A stretch of DNA of 36,137 nucleotides from a bacterium. Lineage in GTDB: Bacteria > UBA6262 > WVXT01. Under the pieces are notes generated by a model. The model worked only from the letters and a program-made list of their open reading frames with translations. It was not told the DNA's origin and ran no database searches. Positions 32,770 to 33,579 of the stretch are shown piece after piece. Both the position numbers and the translations under genes were made by a program. The stretch covers positions 1 to 36,137 of the forward strand of contig DATKVN010000045.1 in assembly GCA_035530055.1 (NCBI GenBank), written 5' to 3'. Each line of letters begins with the position of its first letter. Position 1 is the stretch's first letter.

Positions 32770-32821
32770 TAGGCAATCCCCCTCGCAAAAGTTAAAGTAG
32801 ACTGCTTACTTGAGAAAGTGC

Positions 32822-32850
32822 TTGACAAACTCGATTTTTGGTGGTATACT
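32822..32850 (+). promoter_or_regulatory. Consensus promoter of the candidate non-coding RNA
   Basis: TTGACA (32822-32827), exactly 17 nt, TATACT (32845-32850). The start is expected near 32857, a few bases before a perfect hairpin. No open frame with a credible product follows directly. Confidence 0.9.
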
Positions 32851-32856
32851 TATGCC

Positions 32857-33175
32857 AGGAAAAGGTCCTATATAAGTATAGGACCTTAAGGTAAGCTAAT
32901 GGCATCCCCAACCTATTCCCTTTGAAAGGAAAGGTATAAGTATGACCTGGCGGCGGTGCCCATTGGTGCTTTGCACCGGGCATAAGTTTATTGCCATACA
33001 GCGCAGCACTTTTTTGGGGAAAATAAGAGCATTTTATAGTTTGGGGCCTCCTAAGGTTCCTATAAGGATTAGGGCTTATTGGAGGCAGGCCCAGGCTATG
33101 AGTGATCCGAGCTGCCGAAGGCTCGTATAGCCAAGGGAATTAAACCTTGGCTTTTTCGGTAGCTTGGATTTTTTT
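32857..33175 (+). ncRNA. Candidate structured non-coding RNA, about 320 nt, class not recognised
   Basis: Bounded by a consensus promoter and an intrinsic terminator. Stems seen by eye: AAGGTCCTATA/TATAGGACCTT (perfect 11 bp, 4-nt loop, near 32862-32887); ATGGCA with TGCCAT (about 32903 and 32992), enclosing ACCT-TTCC/GGAA-AGGT and a TGCCC..GGTGC/GCACC..GGGCA hairpin (about 32957-32985); GGGCCTCC against GGAGGC-GGCCC (about 33046-33092); and the terminator stem. I compared it with tmRNA, RNase P, 6S, SRP and common riboswitches and found no signature. A 62-codon frame (32942-33130) lies inside and could be a leader peptide, but its protein looks unnatural. It may be a long leader controlling the three MerR-like genes downstream, or an independent RNA. 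Confidence 0.65.
33105..33175 (+). terminator. Intrinsic terminator of the candidate RNA
   Basis: Inner stem AGCCAAGG/CCTTGGCT (33129-33136, 33145-33152) followed by TTTT. It is nested in an outer stem AGCTGCCGAA/TTCGGTAGCT (33110-33119, 33155-33164) plus ATCC/GGAT, then seven T (33169-33175). Two alternative terminator structures share this site. Confidence 0.85.
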
Positions 33176-33324
33176 GTCTCAAAGTAAGAAGTAAGCAGTT
33201 CGCTTTAAGTTTGCAAAAGGAGGGTCGCTGTTCCGACGAATAAGGAGGAACGGGCCAGCGACGCCTGCGAGACGGTGAGCAGGCAGGTCACCGACTGAAG
33301 CGAAGCGAAAGGAGGTGAGAAAAG
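33176..33324 (+). other. Hairpin-rich leader of the first MerR-like gene
   Basis: GTCGCTG/CAGCGAC (33224-33230, 33256-33262) with inner GTTCC/GGAAC, and GCCTGC/GCAGGC (33263-33268, 33279-33284), followed by the strong ribosome site GGAGGTGA (33311-33318). The last 22 bases up to this site are nearly duplicated before the third MerR-like gene (33967-33988, one difference). No separate promoter is clear. Confidence 0.5.
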
Positions 33325-33579
33325 ATGACCAGGAGAATGAGATTAGCCAATGGTCTTCTTAAGATTGGAGAGATGGCCAGAGAGGCGGGAGTGTTAGTTT
33401 CCACTATCAGGTATTACACCGATGTCGGTCTTTTAAGAGTAGTGGCAAACACTCAAGGTGGCTATCGGCTCTATGACAGAAGAGACACATTGGAAAGAAT
33501 CCACACCATCAAGACCATTAATGGTCGAAAATGGACACTTACTGAGATTAGAGTAGAGTTAGAAAAGCGCAATCAGTAA
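33325..33579 (+). CDS. Minimal MerR-like DNA-binding protein 1
   Basis: 84 residues. LLKIGEMAREAGVLVSTIRY is the MerR winged-helix start, and YTDVGLLRVV and GGYRLYDRRDTL continue to the second wing helix. The long dimerisation helix and effector domain of normal MerR regulators (usually 110 residues or more) are missing, so this is only the DNA-binding domain. It could be an excisionase-like DNA-bending factor or a stripped regulator. A very strong ribosome site, GGAGGTGA, precedes the ATG. It is first of three tandem paralogues. Its position after the structured RNA and before a large secreted protein suggests local control, which is inference only. Confidence 0.85.
   Translation: MTRRMRLANGLLKIGEMAREAGVLVSTIRYYTDVGLLRVVANTQGGYRLYDRRDTLERIHTIKTINGRKWTLTEIRVELEKRNQ

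Follow-up and report, generated by a model that had tools for sequence, protein, structure and literature searches.

The closest described counterparts of the predicted RNA examined here are riboswitch, T-box and other attenuator leaders, with which it shares a promoter, a conserved 5′ domain, a terminator and a possible, mutually exclusive antiterminator, and from which it differs in matching no Rfam family and in having a DNA operator copy on either side. It is encoded in a 36,137-nt bacterial contig (hereafter the window, meaning that entire stretch), ahead of genes for three small MerR-like proteins (Table 1). Classical MerR proteins carry a long coiled coil and an effector domain, for which the window proteins are too short; like BldC of Streptomyces (PMC5859096), they comprise little beyond the MerR winged helix. 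BldC sites, however, are direct repeats (PMC5859096), whereas those of the window are near-palindromic, and the NCBIfam BldC model, run on five small proteins, matched only protein 3, and that very weakly (15.7 bits; cut-off 77); by that family model, the three are not BldC family members. A literature search found no description of the RNA or of the module of promoter, T-run, operator, MerR and secreted-protein gene to which it belongs. We consider it somewhat more probable than otherwise that the RNA is a new, genus-restricted, cis-acting structured leader of the attenuator type, lying inside a MerR autoregulatory region.

Table 1. Features of the RNA locus and of the genes that follow it, in window coordinates.
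Feature	Position	Strand	Basis
Candidate operator O1, near-palindrome TTAAAGTnnACTGCTTACTT, immediately before the −35 box	32788–32811	+	Zero mismatches to pattern; weak profile R2 match
Sigma-70 type promoter, TTGACA-17-TATACT	32822–32850	+	Consensus scan; conserved in G003
5′ domain common to all four RNA copies	32851–32942	+	Alignment A4; model matches with E of 1e-23 or better at four loci
Hairpin P1, 11 bp, predicted 5′ end of transcript	32862–32887	+	Folding; four-homologue comparison
Central region, multibranched in predicted fold	32943–33032	+	Alone folds only slightly above chance
Long helix P3, predicted anti-antiterminator, with GGCUAU in its 3′ arm	33033–33102	+	Prefix folds
Possible antiterminator hairpin GGCUAUG...UAUAGCC, exclusive with P3 and terminator	33094–33132	+	Folding; homologue comparison
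Nested intrinsic terminator, T7 at 33169–33175	33104–33175	+	Sequence and folding
Composite of T-run and candidate operator; O2 at 33189–33212	33169–33212	+	Alignment A5, 18 sites
Small MerR-like DNA-binding protein 1, 84 aa	33325–33579	+	Pfam MerR_1, 1.6e-12
Small MerR-like protein 2, 86 aa	33668–33928	+	Pfam MerR, 1.1e-11
Small MerR-like protein 3, 92 aa	33996–34274	+	Pfam MerR, 2e-12
Large protein with N-terminal signal-like sequence, clipped by contig end	34392–36137	+	Open frame of at least 582 aa

The original prediction called the promoter perfect. The site and its spacing are present, with the −35 box at 32822–32827, a 17-nt spacer and, preceded by TG, the −10 box at 32845–32850, but TATACT agrees with the consensus at five of six positions, giving 11 of 12 overall. 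Of 15 promoter-like sites detected in 8 kb, this one ranks first; all others score 9 of 12. The hairpin expected immediately after it has perfect 11-bp arms (32862–32872 and 32877–32887), the predicted fold holds additional nested helices, and the terminator is two-level as described, with an inner stem (33129–33152), a full stem (33104–33170) at about −39 kcal/mol and its T7; a terminator is found in every RNA copy. The whole 322 nt fold at −133.2 kcal/mol, compared with −99.4 ± 5.2 for shuffled sequences (z = −6.5), and in the folding model the terminator and the helix before it account for most of this excess: without them, the remaining 32857–33092 gives a z of only −1.76. The reverse strand of the segment likewise folds well (z = −4.7), which is a second caveat. 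An RNA body folding barely above chance is in keeping with a rather improbable reading, that of a constitutive leaky terminator or insulator whose non-sensing fold sets a low, fixed MerR level, while all regulation falls to MerR autorepression through a roadblock at O2. Against it stands the distant 5′ domain, nearly invariant between two species and recognizable between the two subtypes of the RNA described below, none of which a plain terminator needs.

None of the known RNA families tested accounts for the segment. Rfam 15, with its riboswitch, T-box and 6S families included, gave no match at the gathering score across the whole window, and the region itself gave chance-level matches only. 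Identity with tmRNA or RNase P RNA was rejected, in line with the claim that neither signature is present: the family matches lie elsewhere in the genome, at C48 and C10 respectively, with none at this locus. A 62-codon frame (32942–33130) is open, yet its substitutions relative to the homologue fall 5, 7 and 6 times on codon positions 1, 2 and 3, an even distribution that indicates no coding selection and by which the frame was rejected as coding; it has no Pfam match either. As had been supposed, the segment gives no coding signal. It looks like a structured RNA that Rfam lacks, from a lineage on which little work has been done.

A BLAST search covering six genomes from the phylum, along with 54 further ones, returned one homologue, at 92% (G003:C96), in the same place before the same MerR gene, with neighboring upstream genes that differ from those of the window. 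Two diverged copies (G001:C144 and G003:C46) were found by inspecting the sequence upstream of other small MerR genes; they have the first ~90 nt in common with the window RNA, and their MerR ATG lies only about 70 nt beyond the T-run. The two subtypes cannot be aligned with each other over the 3′ two thirds of the RNA. There are accordingly four copies in three species of one genus, G003 having two that differ from each other, and alignment A4 of their 5′ domains has a mean column identity of 80%. Models of the 5′ domain (R1, R3), searched over the six genomes, found these four loci and no further convincing member; matches at G000:C36 and G003:C113 were rejected as terminators of opposite-strand response-regulator genes, and one at G003:C132 as overlapping a coding frame. 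Scans of viral contigs found no MerR protein, RNA pattern or operator pattern, and a degenerate RNA pattern gave eight matches there, at chance level.

The proposed check for covariation speaks for a conserved structure, with qualifications attached to each measure. P1 is paired in all four sequences (36 of 36 cells) and shows compensatory changes, on both sides, at two of nine pairs; the shuffle control stands at 44 of 500, which with four sequences is no more than suggestive. The G003:C96 homologue, 27 substitutions away from the window RNA, folds at −133.8 kcal/mol, compared with −112.6 ± 7.3 when the same substitutions are randomly placed, and none of 100 such mutated copies reaches it. 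A consensus fold of the pair has no base pair broken, but it was chosen to suit both sequences, and its energy is unexceptional relative to random placement (17 of 100); the single-sequence folds each lose 9 pairs in the other sequence. Apart from these four copies, G004:C105 presents the same order of promoter, ~165-nt leader with hairpins (z = −3.7), terminator and three MerR genes; because this leader has no detectable sequence homology to the window RNA, we count it as an analogue and not a homologue.

What is constant about the RNA is the company that it keeps. Each copy is followed directly, in the same orientation, by small MerR genes and a large gene for a secreted protein, while the upstream neighbors vary (a glycosyltransferase, small inserted genes, a response regulator). 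In the window, all three of the DNA-binding genes noted at the outset encode MerR winged-helix proteins above the Pfam cut-off, and the large gene behind them, whose product has no Pfam match at 0.01, is likely the output gene. A consensus scan saw no promoter between the terminator and the first MerR gene (33176–33325), so MerR expression should depend on readthrough, and the locus has the arrangement of an attenuation leader, in which promoter and terminator come in that order ahead of the first gene and on its strand. The original prediction withstood the refuting conditions that it had named, with no Rfam match, no coding signal and structure kept among homologues. It had left the choice between a regulatory RNA and a long leader; the evidence favors the latter, because each of the four copies immediately adjoins MerR, including the two in one genome, with no intervening promoter. 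Might the RNA instead be a free-standing, trans-acting small RNA of ~320 nt, its transcription set by MerR at O1, its location a matter of shared regulation and its terminator a plain 3′ end? We regard this as unlikely, if clearly worth weighing: it draws on the RNA's own consensus promoter and strong terminator, on the placement of O1 close before the −35 box, where activators classically bind, and on complete termination as the default fold, but across six genomes every copy found adjoins a MerR gene, the two different copies in G003 each sit beside their own MerR, and no alternative MerR promoter is seen. In a different setting, at L017 (G004:C86) and L009 (G005:C119), a small MerR gene directly follows what we take, from its sequence, to be an mraZ-like gene, with neither RNA nor operator.

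A separate observation concerns window positions 33221–33305, which hold a copy of a dispersed intergenic two-hairpin element with an invariant loop, CGACGAATAAGGAG. Its core occurs 16 times in G000, 18 in G001, 25 in G003 and 4 in G002, with none in G004 or G005; the copies often form tandem pairs ~80–90 bp apart and often lie just before the ribosome-binding sites of unrelated genes. Its stems covary strongly, with compensatory changes at 9 of 18 pairs among 10 copies, and the window copy has no Rfam match. It is a REP-like repeat specific to the genus or, alternatively, a structured RNA not previously described.

For the attenuator leader, the predicted switch centers on the GGCUAU at 33094, which can pair either inside P3, leading to the terminator, or with the UAUAGCC ending at 33132, leading to the antiterminator. 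The antiterminator hairpin is predicted at −15.0 kcal/mol in the window and −16.6 in the G003:C96 homologue, where a U-to-C change turns a G-U pair into G-C, this one substitution being the support for the antiterminator. In the equilibrium ensemble the terminator state dominates completely, with a probability of about 0 for the antiterminator, so that switching would require kinetic control or an active signal. In subtype II there are two terminators in tandem, the first of them overlapped by a hairpin. Subtype II also shows a strong 5′ strand exchange (2:3 pairing, about −14 kcal/mol), which is not significant in the window's subtype and was for that reason rejected as a general switch.

From this anatomy we infer transcription, readthrough, switching, a signal and MerR binding, which may be joined in the following sequence. 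Transcription would start near 32857 from the strong promoter, and by default the nascent RNA would form P1, the central fold, P3 and the nested terminator, with most transcripts ending at 33175 as a ~320-nt RNA. An early event in the RNA, whether due to a ligand, a protein or folding kinetics, would free GGCUAU from P3, allowing it to pair with UAUAGCC and so block the terminator; the polymerase could then continue through the three MerR genes into the one for the secreted protein. MerR, in turn, would bind O1, upstream of the −35 box, and O2, past the T-run where the polymerase is expected to pause, and feed back on both initiation and passage.

The two candidate operators pair with each other over 24 nt (83%). 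They are copies of a 20-bp near-palindrome, TTAAAGTnnACTGCTTACTT, one before the promoter and one just after the T-run, and constitute the only close matches to it in the window's genome (G000). Imperfect terminal inverted repeats bracketing a segment could also mark a MITE-type mobile element bounded by 24-bp repeats, but this origin is very improbable and was rejected: the type occupies one locus per genome instead of many dispersed sites, it sits at the same site before the same MerR gene in both species, and the repeats are near-palindromic operator copies, found ahead of MerR genes in G004 as well. There the operator is repeated, and at L006:1122–1797 (G004:C105) four copies form direct repeats, one of them over the start region of the promoter.

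The operator downstream of the terminator belongs to a composite motif that, in 18 sites, consists of T6–9, a few bases, AAAA and then GAAGTAAGCAGTnnACTTTAA, with a nearly fixed spacing between T-run and operator and with conservation across phyla. Within the window's genome, the composite profile strongly matches the window site alone (E = 1.5e-9). The composite recurs ahead of MerR genes at many Elusimicrobiota loci: the profile matches there at the loci used in building it and, more weakly, at the held-out loci L070, L071, L072, L076, L082 and L084. The Elusimicrobiota MerR loci have the same order of promoter (mostly of similar type), T-run, operator, MerR and secreted protein, with leaders that are mostly short, tens of bases, and in which model R1 found no related structured RNA. 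Their MerR proteins are ~205–215 aa long, compared with 84–92 aa in the window, and their genes precede those of large proteins that are often secreted and in some cases carry fibronectin type III or CHU_C (type IX secretion signal) domains. MerR genes of similar length (~205–215 aa) are present in L077–L095, and in the one examined, L081:4986–5627, the winged helix is fused to a two-component receiver domain.

That Elusimicrobiota retain the promoter, T-run, operator and MerR although their leaders are short also lends something to the leaky-terminator reading; as the module there does without the structured RNA, the RNA is not essential to it, a point against the attenuator reading. The older part of the device appears, on comparative sequence grounds, to be the promoter, T-run, operator and MerR, with the structured RNA a leader elaboration in the window's genus. 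A more speculative extension of the attenuator reading, which we think doubtful, is two-layer control, in which the leader fold would switch termination while the operon's own MerR, on the DNA ahead of a T-run-paused polymerase, would co-decide readthrough into surface-protein operons; the T-run and operator half of this putative device is, judged by profile matches, common to Elusimicrobiota. That T-run and operator keep almost the same distance from site to site suggests a testable idea, namely that MerR may act here on the elongating or terminating polymerase and not on promoter opening. The structured RNA thus ties to a conserved module of promoter, T-run, operator, MerR and secreted-protein gene, and the larger interest may lie in this cross-phylum arrangement.
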